Assembly (NCBI GenBank): GCA_020152595.1
Contig: JAIGNY010003176.1
Span: 696,237-760,236 of the forward strand
Source of the DNA: Chiridota heheva
Lineage: Eukaryota; Echinodermata; Holothuroidea; Apodida; Chiridotidae
Length of the DNA stretch: 64,000 nt
Direction of reading: 5' to 3'
Below are positions 24,704 through 61,200 of the stretch, one piece after another. Below the pieces are notes generated by a model. The model had not been told where the DNA came from. It made no database searches and saw only the letters and a program-made list of their open reading frames with translations. A program made the translations under genes and the position numbers. Numbering within the stretch: position 1 is the first letter of the stretch; every line of letters begins with the position of its first letter.

Positions 24704-26120
24704 GTTCCTATAGTGATTGGAGAATTGCTACTGTCACTCCTATTATTCAAAAAGAGTGACCACATTGTGCCCTCTAACTAGTGTTGTGTGCAAGCATGGT
24801 CATGGAGTCATGGATGTTAATCTAGATCATTTACTAATCGGTGGTTTGCTGAAATTGTCCTAGCATGGGTTTTTACCTATAATGTCTTGTGTCCCTGATT
24901 TATTGGAGTTTCTTGACGATGTAACTAAACTAGTTGATTTTGGTCATAATGTGGATGTCATCTACTTAGATTTCCAAAAAGCGTTTGATAAGTTTCCGTA
25001 GGAAAACAAAAGCGTTTGGTGGGAGGGAAAGTGCGCCAGTTGGATAAATTCTTGGCTAGTGGACAGGTCACAAAGAGTTGTTGTTAATGGTGAAGTATCT
25101 CCATGGAAGAAGGCTACAAGCTGTGTTCGTCTAGGTTCTGTATTGGGTCCGCCTCTTTTCTTAATTTTGATTAATAATGTTAACGTTTCCCTTGGCTCCA
25201 GGTTTTGTAAATTTGCTGATGACACTAAGCTCTACAGAATTGTAAATGATGCTAGTGATTCTTCACTGTTGCAAAGTGATCTGGATAAGTTAGTTTTTTT
25301 CATCCCAAACTTGGCAGATGTCATTCAATGTTGATAAATGCAAAATTATTCATTTTGGTAAGAGCAATTTGGCTTTTGATTACTACATGAACGATTCAAA
25401 TTTTGGTTGTGTTGATCAAGAAGGTATCTAAGTGTTGTCATTACTAGCAATCTAAAACCTACTAAGCAGTGTGCTTTAGCAGCTGTAAGGGCAAATAGAA
25501 TGCTTCGTTTGACCAGAAGGATTTTTTGTTTTCTTTGTAGGGGATTGTTCTTAATTTGTATAAGCAGTTAGTCAGGCCTCGCCTTGAGATGTTGAGTATG
25601 CTATTCAGGCTTGGAGTCCCTTTTATGAAAAGGATAAGTTATTTTGAAACAGGTTCAGTAAAGAGCCACTAGACTTATTCCGGCGTGGTAAGGAATTTCC
25701 CTTATGAATCTGGTTGCGAATTCTTGGTGACCAGAGTTGAGACGAGTACGTGGCGATATAATTCAGGTTTTTAGATTTCAATCTGGTAGTGATGCTATGA
25801 CTTCCTGTAATTTCTTGCATGTTTCAGCTAATCCTCATAAGACACGTGGTAACAGTTTGAAGTTGACCAAAGAGTTCTCACGAATAGGTATTCAGCGTTT
25901 TAGCTTTTTGCAAACAATTGTTAATGAGTGGAATGGTTTGCCTCAGTGGGTAGTACGGCTCCACTGAAGCTCTGTTCACAATTTCAAAGTCAACATTGAT
26001 ATGTTTTTTTTACTAACTCTGGGCATCTTTGATTTTTTTATGGTGGTGATGGTGTTCAAGTTATTTTCAGCTTTTTATGGGTGACTCATCCTTCTTAGCC
26101 CATTATCTTGTTATGTTATG
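24704..26120 (+). mobile_element. CR1/Jockey-like LINE reverse transcriptase, copy 1 (degraded)
   Basis: The plus strand reads, across several frame shifts, WRIATVTPI, then LLEFLDDVTKLVDFG, VIYLDFQKAFDK (palm motif with the catalytic Asp region), QRVVVNGEVSPWK, VLGPPLFLILINNVNVSLGS and FCKFADDTKLYRIV, which holds the FADD catalytic motif. It then runs through NLKPTKQCALAA and ends with IGIQRFSFLQTIVNEWNGLP. It is truncated at its 5' end, directly behind an element ending at 24703. The 3' end carries GTTATGTTATGT-like repeats. It lacks a detectable RNase H domain, unlike the 9-20 kb family. Confidence 0.85.
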
Positions 26121-43394: not shown

Positions 43395-43810
43395 GAAAAT
43401 AGTGGGATGACCTGTACTCAAGAGCATGGTGTTTGGGGACATGAAGCGATATCTTTCCTCAGAAGAAATGCTCTGTCAAAGTGACAGTTAATGTACACAT
43501 CACGTCAGGCATAGCTATTTTTATCACAAGTTTGCAAACAAATTTTCTCCCACTAAAATACCTAATACAGATGAGTGGTTTCAATCTCAAAAGTGCCCTG
43601 ATTACTCATCACTGACTTTCTGTAATCTTCTACACACAAATAACCTTAGGCTACTTGGCTGTGGTATGCATGGGAATGGCAGATAAAGAATCATTGTTTG
43701 GAGTGGAAACACAATACACTGAACAGGAAGTCTGGTTGGTTAGTTTCCATACCTGAGTTTTCAGGATTAACTTGGGTGCCGGATGCGGGTAGGCTTAAAG
43801 AGAAACTCTT
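43395..43810 (+). repeat. Dispersed repeat R1, copy 1
   Basis: It holds ATGAAGCGATATCTTTCCTC, AAAAGTGCCCTGATTACTCA, ACACAATACACTGAACAGGA and GGGTAGGCTTAAAGAGAAAC. Three more copies occur at 47.9, 54.6 and 60.9 kb. Confidence 0.8.
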
Positions 43811-43939
43811 TGGCCTGGATTGCAATCCCCTTTCTCAGCAAAGATTAAAACATTTGGGCTTCCGGTTGATAATGAAAATACACCCAGAAAAGAGGATATA
43901 TCTCAAAGGTATCTACATTTTATATTCTTTTTCGTATAG

Positions 43940-46790: not shown

Positions 46791-46974
46791 TCATTCAAAA
46801 TATAGCTTTTTTGAAGTGCTCAACAGTTTCTTAGGAAAAGTGGTAAATTATACATTTGGTATTACTGCATCTCTCTCACATGTTTTATTACTGGCTTTTA
46901 TCCCATCCACCCACCAACTGTTGCAATGCACAAATGCTTGGTTGGTGTGGTAGTTAGTTTGTTTGTCACTTGGT

Positions 46975-47688
46975 ACGTGTGTCATTTAATTGCTTGCTGT
47001 GTCACTTAATTGCTTGCTGTGTCACTTAATTGGCTGGTGTGTCACTAATTGCTTGCTCTTAATTGGTTGCTGTGTCACTTTGTAGCTAGGTGTGTCAGAT
47101 TTTTAGTGTGTCACTTAATTGGTTGGTGTGTCACTTAATTGTTTGGTGTGTTAATAATTGGCTGGTGTGTCACTTAATTGGTTGCTGTGCCACTTAATTG
47201 GTTGTTGTGTCACTTAATTGGTACGTGTGTCACTTAATTGGTTGCTGTGTCACTTAATTGGTTGCTGTGTCACTTAATTGGTTGGTGTGTCACTTAATTG
47301 GTTGTTGTGTCACTTAATTGGTACGTGTGTCACTTAATTGGTTGCTGTGTCACTTAATTGGTTGGTGTGTCACTTAATTGGTTGCTGTGTCACTTAATTG
47401 GTTGGTGTGTCACTTAATTGTTTGGTGTGTTAATAATTGGCTGGTGTGTCACTTAATTGGTTGCTGTGCCACTTAATTGGTTGTTGTGTCACTTAATTGG
47501 TTGGTGTGTCACTTAATTGTTTGGTGTGTTAATAATTGGCTGGTGTGTTACTTAATTGGTTGGTGTGTCAATAATTGGCTGGTGTGTCACTAATTGGTTG
47601 GTGTGTCACTAATTGGTTGGTGTGTCACTAATTGGTTGGTGTGTCACTAATTGGTTGGTGTGTCACTTAGTAGGTGTCATTTGGTAGC
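46975..47688. repeat. 20-bp satellite array, GTGTCACTTAATTGGTTGCT type
   Basis: About 35 units of 19-21 bp. Most are GTGTCACTTAATTGGTTG plus two variable bases. The array ends at the TA where the 47691 element begins. Compared with the array to its right, each unit has an extra AATT. Confidence 0.92.
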
Positions 47689-47690
47689 TA

Positions 47691-48704
47691 CAATCTTGGA
47701 CAAAACTCTTGAATTGGTAGCTACAATCTTGGACAAAACTCTTGGAATACTTAGTGAAAATATATGATGCTTTTGATGAACTTACTTTTCTATTGTAAAT
47801 TATCCTCCATTTAGAAATTATAAATGCTGGAAAAAAACTTCTTTTGCTTCTTCAGTCCCTCTTTTTTCAGTTGTAATTAATATTTTAGAATTTTAAGGAC
47901 ATTCTTATAACTTTAATGATGCTGCCAGTTCTCAGAGGAATGGGGTACCTAGCACCACCAATTAATGGTGGAGGTTAATGAGCTCTTGGTTAAAAAGAGA
48001 GGTTTTTATGCTAAGAGTCATGGGACTCATGAAATAACACACAAGTCTGATTTTTGATAGTAGTACCATTGAAAAATTACTTAAGTATTTACATGAAGCA
48101 ATATCTTTTCTTAGGAGAAATGGTCACCAATCATTCACAGCTAATGCACACATCACCTCAGGCGTATGATACACAGCTATTTTATCACCAGTTTGCAAGC
48201 AAATTTCTCCCACTAAGACATGGATGAGTGATTTCAATCACAAAAGTGCCCTGATTACTCAGCAGTGGCTTTCTGTAATAATATACACACAATAACCTTG
48301 GGCTACTTGTTGTGGTGTGCATTGGAATGGCAGACAAACAATCATTGTTTGGAATGGAAACACAATACACTGAACAGGAAGGAAGTCGGATTGGTAATTG
48401 TCATACCTGGATTTTCAGGATTTATTTAGGTGTCGGGTGCGGGTAGGCTTAAAGAGAAACTTTTCGGCATGTCCTCCCCGTCTTAACCTCACTATCTTAA
48501 CCATCCTCCCCTCCTGTTCCCCCCTGCATTTACTGTTGACCATTAATGGGTTTTTTTCTGGAAATTACATTAAAACAAAAAGAAATTTAATATTAAAAAA
48601 GGGGAGGGGGTAAGCAATTCTCAGAAAAATTATTGAAGAAATAATGCTCTAAAATATGTAGTTCTCATAACGCTGAATTGCCCCAACAATTTTGTCCAAG
48701 ATTG
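47691..48704. mobile_element. 1.0-kb TA-flanked inverted-repeat element splitting a satellite array
   Basis: The left end CAATCTTGGACAAAACTCTT is mirrored at the right by CAATTTTGTCCAAGATTG. TA stands outside at 47689-47690 and 48705-48706. The left end is present twice in tandem (again at about 47723). The ends resemble those of the 50388-52459 element. The interior is repeat R1 plus unassigned DNA and encodes nothing I recognise. Confidence 0.76.
47925..48470 (+). repeat. Dispersed repeat R1, copy 2, inside a TA-flanked element
   Basis: This is the longest copy, from AGTTCTCAGAGGAATGGGGT to GGGTAGGCTTAAAGAGAAAC. It forms most of the interior of the 47691-48704 element. Confidence 0.82.
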
Positions 48705-48706
48705 TA

Positions 48707-50070
48707 GGTGTGTCACTTGGTTGTTGTTCAGTTGGTTGCTGTGTCAGTTGGTTTGTGTATCGGTTGGTTGGTGTGTCACTTGGTTGTTGTGTCACTTGGT
48801 TGGTGTATCAGTTGGTTGGTGTGTCAGTTGGTTTGTGTATCAGTTGGTTGGTGTGTCACTTGGTTGTTGTGGTACTTGGTTGGTTTGTCACTTGGTTGTT
48901 GTGTCACTTGGTTGGTTTGTCACTTGGTTGTTGTGTCACTTGGTTGTTGTGTCACTTGGTTGTTGTGTCACTTGGTTGTTGTGTCACTTGGTTGGTTTGT
49001 CAGTTGGTTGGTGTGTCAGTTGGTTGGTGTGTCAGTTGGTTTGTGTATCAGTTGGTTGGTGTGTCACTTGGTTGTTGTGGTACTTGGTTGGTTTGTCACT
49101 TGGTTGTTGTGTCACTTGGTTGGTTTGTCAGTTGGTTGTTGTGTCACTTGGTTGGTTTGTCACTTGGTTGTTGTGTCACTTGGTTGGTTTGTCACTTGGT
49201 TGCTGTGTCACTTGGTTGGTGTGTCAGTTGGTTGGTGTGTCAGTTGGTTGTTGTGTCACTTGGTTGGTTTGTCACTTGGTTGCTGTGTCACTTGGTTGGT
49301 GTGTCAGTTGGTTGGTGTGTCAGTTGGTTGTTGTGTCACTTGGTTGGTTTGTCACTTGGTTGTTGTGTCACTTGGTTGTTGTGTCACTTGGTTGGTTTGT
49401 CACTTGGTTGGTGTGTCAGTTGGTTGGTGTGTCAGTTGGTTGGTGTGTCAGTTGGTTTGTGTGTCACTTGGTTGTTGTGGTACTTGGTTGGTTTGTCACT
49501 TGGTTGTTGTGTCACTTGGTTGGTTTGTCAGTTGGTTGTTGTGTCACTTGGTTGGTTTGTCACTTGGTTGTTGTGTCACTTGGTTGGTTTGTCACTTGGT
49601 TGGTTTGTCACTTGGTTGCTGTGTCACTTGGTTGGTGTGTCAGTTGGTTGTTGTGTCACTTGGTTGGTTTGTCAGTTGGTTGGTGTGTCAGTTGGTTGTT
49701 GTGTCACTTGGTTGGTTTGTCACTTGGTTGCTGTGTCACTTGGTTGGTGTGTCAGTTGGTTGGTGTGTCAGTTAATTGGTGTGTCAGTTGGTTGATGTGT
49801 CACTTGGTTGTTGTGTCACTTGGTCGTTTTGTCACTTAGTTGCTGTGTCACTTGGTTGGTGTGTCAGTTGGTCGGTGTGTCAGTTGGTGGTTGGTGTGTC
49901 AGTTGGTTTGTGTGTCACTAAGTTTGTGTGTTACTAGGTTGGTGTGTCACTTGGTTGGTGTGTCACACTCGGTTGGAACTGTACATGTGCCACACCTGGT
50001 TGGGGTGTTACACTTGGTTGGGGTGTCACACTTGGTTGGGATGTCACACTTGGTTGGTGTATGTTTTACT
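48707..50070. repeat. 16-bp satellite array, GTGTCACTTGGTTGTT type
   Basis: About 85 units of GTGTCA(C/G)TTGGTTG plus two variable bases. Units with CACTT and CAGTT are mixed in longer patterns. All three forward frames are open for over 350 codons, because 16 is not a multiple of three and no phase contains a stop. These frames are not genes. Confidence 0.94.
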
Positions 50071-50264: not shown

Positions 50265-50387
50265 ACCAGAGACATTGGGTCCGCTTCTTTTTCATCATCT
50301 TCATTAATGATATTGATGTTTCACTTCGCTTCAAGATTTGTAAATTTGCTGATGACACTAAGCTCTGCAGGATTGTTGATGATGCTA
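50265..50387 (+). mobile_element. CR1/Jockey-like LINE, copy 2, left piece
   Basis: This short piece encodes FFIIFINDIDVSLRFKIC and FADDTKLCRIVDDAT, matching copy 1 at about 25160-25255. It is interrupted at the TA dinucleotide 50386-50387 by a TA-flanked inverted-repeat element, and resumes at 52462. Confidence 0.82.
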
Positions 50388-52459
50388 CAATCCCTGACAA
50401 AAGTAATGACACAAAACCTCCGCCTTCCTCAATATTTTCATTTTTGCAGCCAACATCAAAATAGGCCAGGGGTGGTGGGGGGTTGTGGGTGGCTTGCACT
50501 TGTAAATTTATGTGAATGAGACGCAAATTGAATGAGATGCAAATTGAATGAGATGCAAATTGAATGAGATGCAAATTGAATGAGATGCAAATTGAATGAG
50601 ATGCAAATTGAATGAGACGCAAATTGAATGAGATACAAATTGAATGAGACATAAATTGAATGAGCATAAATTAAATGAGATAAATTGAATGAGCATAAAT
50701 TGAAAGAGATAAATTGAAAGAGACACAAATTGAATGAGATCAAATTGAATGAGACATAAATTGAAAGAGACGCAAATTGAATGAGACATAAATTGAATGA
50801 GACATAAATTGAATGAGACGCATAAATTGAATGAGACGCATAAATTGAAAGAGACGCATAAATTGAATGAGATCAAATTGAATGAGACACAAATTGAAAG
50901 AATAAATTGAATGAGACATAAATTGAATGAGATGCAAATTGCATGAGCGCAAATTGAATGAGACGTAAATTGAATGAGATGCAAATTGAATGAGATGCAA
51001 ATTGAATGAGACGCAAATTGAATGAGACGCAAATTAAATGAGACGCAAATTGAATGAGATGCAAATTGCATGAGGCGCAAATTGAATGAGACGCAAATTG
51101 AATGAGATGCAAATTGAATGAGATGCAAATTGAATGAGACGCAAATTGAAAGAGACGCAAATTGAATGAGATGCAAATTGAATGAGACGCAAATTGAATG
51201 AGACGCAAATTGAATGAGATGCAAATTGAATGAGATGCAAATTGAATGAGACGCAAATTGAATGAGACGCAAATTGAATGAGATGCAAATTGCATGAGGC
51301 GCAAATTGAATGAGACGCAAATTGAATGAGATGCAAATTGAATGAGACGCAAATTGAATGAGACGCAAATTGAAAGAGACGCAAATTGAAAGAGACGCAA
51401 ATTGAATGAGATCAAATTGAATGAGCATAAATTGAAGGAGACGCATAAATTGAATGAGACATAAATTGAATGAGACGCATAAATTGAATGAGAGCATAAA
51501 TTGAATGAGACGCATAAATTGAATGAGACGCAAATTGAATGAGGCATAAATTGAATGAGACGCAAATTGAATGAGACATAAATTGAATGAGACGCAAATT
51601 GAATGAGGCATAAATTGAATGAGGCGCAAATTGAATGAGGCGCAAAAATTGAATGAATGAGGCGCAAATTGAATGAGGCATAAATTGAATGAGGCATAAA
51701 TTGAATGAGGCGCAAATTGAATGAGGCGTTAAATTGAATGAGCGCAAATTGAATGAGACGCAAATTGAATGAGACGAAATTGAATGAGACGAAATTGAAT
51801 GAGACGCAAATTGAATGAGATAAATTTGAATGAAGAGACGCAAATTGAAGAGCATAAATTGAATGAGATAAATTGCATGAGACAAATTGAATGAGACGAA
51901 ATTGAAAGAGACGCAAATTGAATGAGATCAAATTGAATGAGACGCAAATTGAATGAGACGCAAATTGAAGGAGACGCAAATTGAAGGAGAAATTGAACGA
52001 GACATAAATTGAACGAGCGAAATTGAACGAGACGCAAATTGAACGAGACGCAAATTGAACGAGACGCAAATTGAACGAGACGCAAATTGAACGAGACGCA
52101 AATTGAACGAGACGCAAATTGAACGAGACGCAAATTGAACGAGACGCAAATTGAAGGAGACGCAAATTGAATGAGACGCAAATTGAATGAGACGCAAATT
52201 GAAAGAGACGCAAATTGAATGAGATCAAATTGAATGAGACGCAAATTGAATGAGACGCAAATTGAAAGAGACGCAAATTGAATGAGACGCAAATTGAATG
52301 AGACGCAAATTGAATGAGACGCAAATTGAACGAGACGCAAATTGTATGAGACGCAAATTGAATGAGAAGCAAATTGAATGAGACGCAAATTGAATGAGAC
52401 GCAAATTGAATGAGACGTGAATCACTCATGTTTTGTGTCATTTATTTTGTCAGGGATTG
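50388..52459. mobile_element. 2.07-kb TA-flanked inverted-repeat element with a minisatellite core
   Basis: The ends CAATCCCTGACAAAAGTAAT and, inverted, CAATCCCTGACAAAATAAAT extend about 30 bp with few mismatches. TA stands outside (50386-50387 and 52460-52461). The LINE sequence is continuous once the element and one TA are removed, which proves insertion. Between the ends are about 90 bp of unique DNA and a 1.9-kb 16-bp array. It encodes no transposase, so it is non-autonomous, probably moved by a Tc1/mariner-type enzyme. Confidence 0.88.
50512..52425. repeat. 16-bp minisatellite, CAAATTGAATGAGACG type
   Basis: About 120 units of CAAATTGAATGAGA(C/T)G with variants (ATAAATTGAATGAG, AATTGAACGAGACG). 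Blocks of one variant cluster, for example AACGAG at 51990-52140. Long minus-strand frames of up to 522 codons arise from this repetition and are not genes. Confidence 0.94.
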
Positions 52460-53300
52460 TAGGCGTTCTTCACTGTTGCAAACTGATCTGGATAAGTTAG
52501 TTTCTTGGTCCTAAACATGACAGCTGTCATTCAATGTTTGATAAATACAAAGTTATTCATTTTGGTCAGAATAATTTGGCTTTTGATTTCTGCATGAATG
52601 ATTCAAGTTTTGGTTGTGTCGATCAAGAAAGGGATCTAGGTCTTGTCATTACTGGCAATCTGAAGCCTTCTAAGCAGTTTGCTTTAGCAGCTGCAAGGGC
52701 AAATGGATGCTTGGTTTGATTAGAAGAATTTTTTGTTTTCTAGGTAGAGAGGTTGTCCTTCATTTGTATAAGCAGTTAGTCAGGCCTCACCTTGAGTATG
52801 CTATTCATGCTTGGAGTCCTTTTATTAGAATGAAGTTCATTTTGGAGCAGGTTCACTAAAGAGCCACAAGACTTATTCCCAAAGTAAGGAATCTCTCTTA
52901 TAAATCTATGTTGCAAATTCTTGGTTTGATCACACACGAATTAAGAAGAATATGTGGCAATATGATTCAGGTTTTTAAATTCCTATCTGGTAGTGATGAT
53001 TTGACTTCCTGTTAATTCTTGCATGTTTGAGCTAATCCTTATGTGACACATAGTAACAGTTTGAAGTTGACCAAAGAGTTATCATGGATAGATATTCAGC
53101 CTTTTAGTTTTTGCAAAGAGTTGTTAATGTGTGGAATGGTTTGCCTGATTGGGTGGTTAGCTCCAATTCTGTTCACAATTTCAAAGTCAATGCAAGTTTT
53201 TACTAACTTTAATTTTTTGCTGTATTTTTCTTTTGTGGTGCTGGTGTTAGTTTGGGCTTTTTATGGGGTAACTAACCCTTCTTAGTATGTCATCTTGTTA
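52460..53300 (+). mobile_element. CR1/Jockey-like LINE, copy 2, right piece
   Basis: The sequence continues copy 2 exactly where the left piece stopped: SSLLQTDLDKLV, later IHFGQNNLAFDFCMND, QERDLGLVITGNLKPSKQFA, then ELSWIDIQPFSFCKELL and the same GTTATGTTAT 3' end as copy 1. It carries frame shifts and stops. The two pieces together show that the 50388-52459 element inserted into an existing LINE copy. Confidence 0.85.
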
Positions 53301-53469
53301 TGTTATCTTAAATACACCTAACCGAGGGCACACTTTGTTACATGTGAAGGAAAAAGTGGTGTGCAAAAAGTCCAATCACACGCAACTTCACCGCAGAAAA
53401 AAACAAAAAACAGTCTGAATAACATGCAAGCTCTGCACTGGTGATACCACTTGTTATAATTTCAATATG

Positions 53470-53628: not shown

Positions 53629-54549
53629 TGTTAAATTGTCTTGTTAACAAACTTGTCTCAAGCACTCACAGCTTGTTGTTGTGGAATGGGGTAAAAATGT
53701 GTGGAGGGGAGGCACACAAATTGGGCAATTCTACTACATATGAATGATTTGCCTGCAGGAATGATAAATAGGGACCTTTGCCTCTTTTTCCCTGCTCTAA
53801 GATCCCAGGCTGACTAAGTGGCAGCATTTTAAATCCACTAGACTTCCTTTGTAATTGTTTTGATATTTAGAAATATTGTGTTATCTGTAGCTCAAACAAT
53901 TATGATCATTCCAGGCCTAATTTATTGGAGGTATCAACTGTCATATCTGTCAAGTTGTTGAGCAAGTATGAACATTTCTTAGTCTGCATATTTTGATAAG
54001 AGTATGACAAAATAGCCACCACAGAAATAATCAGCACAAAATCTGCAGGATTGTTATGACATTGTTTCACTTGATGCTCTTTAAATTTCCCTAAATGCGC
54101 TTTAGATTTTTCATATAATTTCTTCTGCACAAAAAGATGTCGCACAGGATAAACACAAATTAAAGTTTGAAGCACTGCTTTCTACAATATGCAAACCACA
54201 TACTGTATTAATTGATTTTTTTGCAAGACAATTTTAAGCATAACACTCAATCACATTCTGCAAAGATTTAGTTCATTTCATTTATCAAAAGGCTTTGCAA
54301 AAGATTTCATTATCAATTATCATCTGCAAAATGATGGGAGTGGATAGGCACATAGGGTGGGGGTGGGAGGGAGGATGGCCCAAAAAGCTCAATGTTTTGA
54401 CCAAGATGCTAATCCTAAATCAAAAGTATTCCAACTTTTCCAACAAGTCCCAAAAATATTCAAACACACTGTTTGTGCACATGATGGTTTTAAAACTTTT
54501 AAGCAAATGTTCAATTAATGCATAACTATTTCTTATCATGCCAAAAAGT

Positions 54550-55090
54550 TTCTTTTAAGCCTACCAGCACTTGACACCTGAGTTAATCCTGCAAGCTCAG
54601 GTTTGGCAATTACCAACCCGACTTCCTTCCTGTTCAGTGTATTGTTTCCACTCTAAAAACAATGATTGTTTACCTGCCATTCCCATACACACCACAGCCA
54701 AGTAGCTCAAGGTTATTTGTGTGTATAAGATTGCACAAAGCCAGAGCTGAATAATCAAGGCACTTTTGTGATTACAATCACTCATTTGTGTGTCTTAGTG
54801 GGAGAAATTTGTTTGCAAACTCTTATTAAAATAGTTGTGTATTATATGCCTGAGGTAATGTGTACATTAACTGTGAATGTTTGATGGACCATTTCTCCTA
54901 AGGAAAGATATTGCTTCATTTAAATACCTAAGTAATTTTTCAATGACACTATACTATCAAAAATCAGACTTGTGTGTTATTTCATGAGTCTCATGACTCA
55001 TAGCATAAAAACCTCTCTTTTTAACCAAGAGCTCATTAACCTCCCACCATCAATTGGTAATGCTAGGTACCCCATTCCTCTGAGAACTAC
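54550..55090 (-). repeat. Dispersed repeat R1, copy 3
   Basis: It is a full-length reverse-complement copy, with GCACTTTTGTGATTACAATC and ACCCCATTCCTCTGAGAACT. It lies just upstream of the kinase exon at 55185. Confidence 0.82.
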
Positions 55091-60800: not shown

Positions 60801-60861
60801 TTATGAGTTCAGAATGAGTTGCATGATTTTTTTGACACTTACCGTTCCACGTGGCCTACCC

Positions 60862-61200
60862 GCATTTGACACCTGAGTTAATCCTGAAAACTCAATATGA
60901 CAATTACCAACCTGACTTCCTGTTCAGTGTATTGTTTCCACTCCAAACGATGATTATTTATCTGCAATTCCCATGCACACCACAGCCAAGTAGCCCAAGG
61001 TTATTTGTGTGTATAAGATTACAGAAAGGCAGTGCTGAGTAATCAGGGCACTTTTGTGATTAAAATCACTCATTCGTGTTAAAGTTCTTCGTAAACTGGT
61101 GATAAAATAGTTGTGTATTATATGCCTGAGGTGATGTGTGCATTGACTGTGAATGATTGATGAACCATTTCTCCTAAGGAAAGATATTGCTTCATGTTTT
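60862..61200 (-). repeat. Dispersed repeat R1, copy 4
   Basis: It is a shorter reverse-complement copy, from GACACCTGAGTTAATCCTG to AAAGATATTGCTTCATG. Confidence 0.8.

Follow-up and report, generated by a model that had tools for sequence, protein, structure and literature searches.

The insert at 50388-52459 of the window, i.e. of the whole 64,000-nucleotide stretch of Chiridota heheva DNA analysed here, is likely to be a MITE of ~190 bp with 30-bp ends, TA as target and probably of the Tc1/mariner type, that hit an old LINE and in which a pair of 16-bp units grew to ~119 units, most likely after the insertion.

A TA-flanked insert in a LINE

The insert is 2,072 bp long, has 30-bp inverted ends with a TA outside each of them, and contains ~119 units of 16 bp. 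The inverted arms, 50385-50417 and 52430-52462, are 94% complementary with 2,012 nt between them. Between the two TAs (50386-50387 on the left and 52460-52461 on the right, neither assigned to a strand) 28 of the 30 end positions match, in agreement with the initial annotation, which had described inverted ends with a TA on each side; the ends are, however, ~30 bp in extent and not limited to CAATCCCTGACAAAA, as it had given them. The left terminal inverted repeat (50388-50417, plus strand) lies on the side away from the unit pair discussed below and is followed by the left arm of the MITE, which extends up to the array (50418-50512, minus strand); region 50386-50511 matches 107 of 120 aligned positions of the family consensus, with eight gap columns, and is collinear with it in blastn. 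The right arm (52418-52459, minus strand) includes the seed-side terminal inverted repeat (52430-52459, minus strand), as identified by comparison of the inverted ends, and 42 of 47 aligned consensus positions are matched by 52415-52461. Without the array, 125 bp remain on the left and 42 bp on the right. The array itself (50513-52417, plus strand) has the modal unit AAATTGAATGAGACGC and a period of 16 with 119.7 copies according to Tandem Repeats Finder, or 117 to 118 units by motif counts, so that the ~120 units originally reported to fill most of the insert are indeed present.

The host LINE is found on the plus strand on both sides, its left part at 50274-50387, as delimited by the reading frame and by alignment to a relative within the window (25142-26119, plus strand), and its right part at 52460-53306, where the main alignment to this relative ends. 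The LINE frame, KFADDTKLCRIVDDA / RRSSLLQTDLDKL (FADDTKL region), is unbroken once one TA is kept, confirming that it resumes across the insert, and this continuity, together with the empty relatives, also defines the right TA. The interrupted LINE copy, which the initial annotation had described as CR1-like and which is a candidate for this type, is decayed, with stops further on. The relative at 25142-26119, which has a weak RVT_1 match (E 2.9e-4, below the curated cut-off), is identical to the host LINE in 807 of 996 aligned columns (81%) and has no gap and one TA at the junction. Eight LINE-side matches were obtained in the genome (L001-L008), the first being the window itself; six of the seven others align across the junction with one TA and no gap, among them L007, which has a gap some 17 bp past it, and L002 has TATATA there. 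The empty sites with a single TA that had been proposed as a check are thus seen in seven of eight LINE relatives, which makes TA the fixed-length target-site duplication of the window copy. Taken together, these data support a TA-flanked, non-autonomous transposon inserted in a LINE.

The insert belongs to a MITE family

We searched the window's own assembly (1.10 Gb, 3,744 contigs) and obtained 146 matches to the array-side end at up to three mismatches (74 forward and 72 reverse; reversed control 0+0). Further copies with the same ends, which the initial annotation had suggested looking for, consequently exist, and the arrays read at other loci lie inside the same MITE, i.e. we encountered neither an isolated element nor a family whose arrays are never enclosed by the ends. 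One hundred of the 146 end sites were listed and 92 of these fetched, two of which belong to the window; the other 90 and a second end in L010 make up the 91 sites that were scored by script. This assigned about two units to 51 sites, fewer to 14, three to one and four or more to two, the remainder being of a sister type (11), without a junction (9) or read from the other end (3). Most of the 91 sites therefore represent a MITE of ~190 bp, the ordinary copies having two 16-bp units near one end. Hand reading changed some of the assignments: L043 has five real units and is the sole genuine case among the two scored as four or more, as L013 has no array; L019 and L095, scored as sister copies, hold two units each, L059 and L068, likewise scored, start like the main family and then break off, and the first end in L082, scored as two-unit, holds about one unit.

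A consensus built from 29 two-unit copies measures 193 bp, both TAs counted, and these copies are 74.6-92.7% identical to it (median 85.4%). Where the far end was found (n = 28), two-unit copies span 172-257 bp (median 197.5). The family is thus short, has terminal inverted repeats and comprises many copies of similar length, as expected of a MITE, and a sequence of 193 bp would be too short to encode a transposase.

The superfamily is probably Tc1/mariner. The window copy has the TA target duplication of this superfamily, and the ends begin with CAATCCCYGACAAAA, which may resemble Tc1-like ends. DDE_3 (PF13358) was detected at 34 places in the genome, none of them within 10 kb of the 100 listed end sites of the 146 when the lists were compared by reading. 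The search for PF01359 gave no matches and its control was equally silent, so nothing follows from it. No transposase frame was recognised by eye among open frames of at least 70 residues in the 13 end loci in which the script had found no far end. None of these searches linked a transposase to the MITE ends, a point against the reading that we prefer.

Several observations on the family may be added. Seven of the eleven sister copies were left after hand reading (L031, L054, L079, L083, L092, L093, L097); they have nearly the same ends, a different interior and no 16-bp units. L067, L026 and L074 have repeats at or near a C-rich tract in place of a grown 16-bp unit. Three MITE ends 11.8 kb apart and in the same orientation (G000:C3679:8036, 19836 and 31638) look like a large tandem duplication, and two identical ends 9.3 kb apart in opposite orientation (G000:C875:835536 and 844884) may mark an inverted duplication. 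The MITE end has no match in viral contigs.

Ordinary copies carry a two-unit seed

In the direction of the window's array the consensus reads ATTTATG, TGAATGAGACGCGAAT, TGAATAAGACGTGAAT, CTCTAGTG and then the end. With up to three mismatches allowed, the two-unit seed occurs 74 times in the genome (control 0), two of the places being inside the C3439 array and one inside the C1751 array described below; three others, at C3679, give the impression of a single insertion that was duplicated. Most of the ordinary copies read have the unit pair in an equivalent position. Comparison of the window copy with the consensus shows that both arms are collinear and that the unit stretch alone is multiplied. 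The GAGACGCAAA form of the window also occurs in ordinary copies, e.g. L016 and L018, and the window array could thus come from the seed of its own copy.

Arrays grew in several copies

Two pattern searches for tandem units, both allowing few mismatches so that more diverged arrays would be missed, gave 96+12 matches, of which 100 were listed (the other eight are forward hits from C3439 onwards in list order), and 54+19 matches, all listed; the controls gave none. Long arrays among the listed matches are those of the window, C3439, C1751, C661, C939 and C2790. By motif count there are 31 units in C3439 (279010-279508), 15 in C661 (644045-644286), five in C939 (576408-576474) and 17 in C1751 (near 1379090-1379358), the last count missing some diverged units (~20 by eye); C2790 (56038-56264) has six pattern matches over ~227 bp. 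Each of the remaining listed places has just one match, as copies of two or three units would give, and the one at C2066 (L120), which was read, has one pair followed by other sequence.

All five arrays read, i.e. those of the window, C939, C1751, C661 and C3439, sit inside the MITE. In the window and C939 the array is enclosed by both MITE ends, and this also holds for C1751, where the left end is shortened. In C661 a diverged far end can still be recognised, and the array-side end lacks its outer portion or has other sequence in its place. For C3439 the stretch read covers the array-side end and a portion of the other arm and stops before the far end. The array junctions correspond between the five copies, and the arrays share a common register. 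The modal units are GAGACGCA in the window (118 units by motif count), AAGACGCG in C3439, GAGACGCG and GAGGCGTG in C1751, and AAGACGTG in C661. As the modal units differ among the longer arrays, growth looks independent. The C3439 unit merges features of both seed units, suggesting a different starting phase. The units of C939 are mixed and include GACGCAAA units that are also found in the window, which makes independent growth of these two arrays less certain.

As ordinary copies already hold two units and several copies have expanded with different modal units, the MITE is well supported as the cradle of the array. The initial annotation had seen the element as both cradle and carrier of satellite DNA; the seed in ordinary copies and the several expanded copies bear out the former role, but not that satellite DNA is carried about.

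Proposed growth of the window array

Based on these findings we suggest that the founder of the family already carried two tandem 16-bp units, TGAATGAGACGCGAAT TGAATAAGACGTGAAT, beside one end and that the MITE spread this seed through the genome. The window copy landed in the old LINE, where slippage or unequal exchange may have extended the pair to ~119 units, most likely after insertion, and other copies grew with other unit variants.

Within the window array adjacent units are more alike than in shuffled arrays at lags 1-3 (0 of 2000 shuffles gave a distance as low). This likeness is gone by lag 10 (833 of 2000), and at lag 20 the units differ more from each other than after shuffling (1998 of 2000 shuffles gave a distance no greater than the observed one). 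The array thus shows local duplication plus some larger-scale block order, and the unlikeness at lag 20 goes beyond what simple local growth by itself explains and counts against the scenario that we prefer.

The initial annotation had assumed that the whole 2-kb unit may have moved as one, i.e. that the array arose by growth in a parent at another locus, from which the complete element was then transposed into the LINE as cradle and carrier. The well-preserved ends and TAs and the position of the array wholly between the ends would fit such a move, and an earlier-grown copy moving by cut-and-paste would leave neither a parent nor a sister array, which counts against growth in place. However, the listed matches of the two pattern searches (100 of 108, and 73 of 73) include no further array built from the window's type of unit, and the modal units of the remaining long arrays are different ones. 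With no sister array among these matches, growth after insertion is the simpler reading, and we regard transposition of the grown element as rather unlikely.

It is highly improbable that the MITE took up a minisatellite which already existed at another place in the genome. Capture of tandem repeats has been proposed for miDNA4 in the account given in PMC12628747, and further 16- and 20-bp arrays lie near the insert in the window, but these nearby arrays have a different unit, GGTGTGTCACTTGGTT, the position of the pair is constant in most of the ordinary copies read, and the five arrays read are all inside the MITE; the pair of the founder may itself be an ancient capture. Although the 1.9-kb array is known from the assembly sequence alone, it is scarcely conceivable that it is a product of chance or artefact, e.g. 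an ordinary minisatellite that happens to lie within a palindrome, or a misassembly, given 146 family ends versus none in the control, the empty LINE sites and expanded arrays at other loci. We thus favour growth of the pair in the window copy itself, following insertion.

Comparison with known systems and implications

Repetitive DNA born inside a transposon is a process already known, of which the insert is a clear example. According to the descriptions in PMC9659126 and PMC12628747, miDNA4 from Xenopus tropicalis (Scalvenzi and Pollet 2014) is a Tc1/mariner MITE with a satellite unit present as monomer or variable array. Compared by description, the two share a MITE, in our case probably of the Tc1/mariner type, with a satellite unit, but ordinary copies of the Chiridota heheva MITE already hold the 16-bp pair, and no free unit arrays are found here among the listed matches of the two pattern searches. 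MITE-derived tandem repeats are likewise described for Xstir / Xmix of Xenopus (Hikosaka and Kawahara 2004), which occurs as a MITE, as an array and as a composite of both (PMC9659126, PMC12628747). Together with miDNA4 and the bacterial BrickBuilt it is the nearest precedent for our case. The repeat source is given as the inverted repeats in a review table (PMC9659126), and internal sequences and a hybrid-element route are given in the other review (PMC12628747), whereas the multiplied part in our case is a 16-bp pair beside one end. BrickBuilt of Porphyromonas gingivalis, as described in PMC4596501, is a minisatellite in a MITE with a 23 bp unit and 19 copies in one strain; by this description it also has a tandem unit between small inverted-repeat ends and several copies, but is bacterial. 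Tetris, a foldback transposon of Drosophila virilis, is another DNA transposon described as a satellite source, in that it supplied the building blocks of a satellite (PMC4079207), which according to the review table were its terminal inverted repeats (PMC9659126), and not a pair beside one short end as found here.

The two-unit state, three- and five-unit steps and arrays of 15, ~17-20, 31 and ~119 units coexist in one genome, and as the seed is traceable, copies of this one element can be set side by side to follow how a minisatellite begins to grow. We are inclined to regard the family as a natural replicate experiment, in which ~70 places share a near-identical seed and at least five copies that were read, and probably a sixth copy, grew to between five and ~119 units, with what look like different seed units or phases as starting points. 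If this is true, a single genome may allow growth rate, phase choice and context dependence to be measured. On this evidence a transposon that spreads seeds, a few of them growing at their landing sites, is preferred to a carrier of grown arrays.

Other repeats in the window

A second TA-flanked element (47722-48706) with the ends TACAATCTTGGACAAAACTCTTG lies inside a minisatellite (46938-50060). By eye, its ends and those of the MITE are alike in 12 of the first 15 positions, and its end has 1046+1026 matches in the genome at up to two mismatches (control 0). The minisatellite site GTAGCTAGGTGTGTCA at 47082 resembles the joined flanks of this element, whose left end is doubled as a 33-bp tandem duplication (47681-47744). 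Rfam and tRNA searches gave no hits within the window. A dispersed repeat of ~340-550 bp is present four times in the window (43439-43817, 47927-48471, 54537-55088 and 60854-61197); one copy is nested inside the second element, and its identity to the remaining three is 80-87%.
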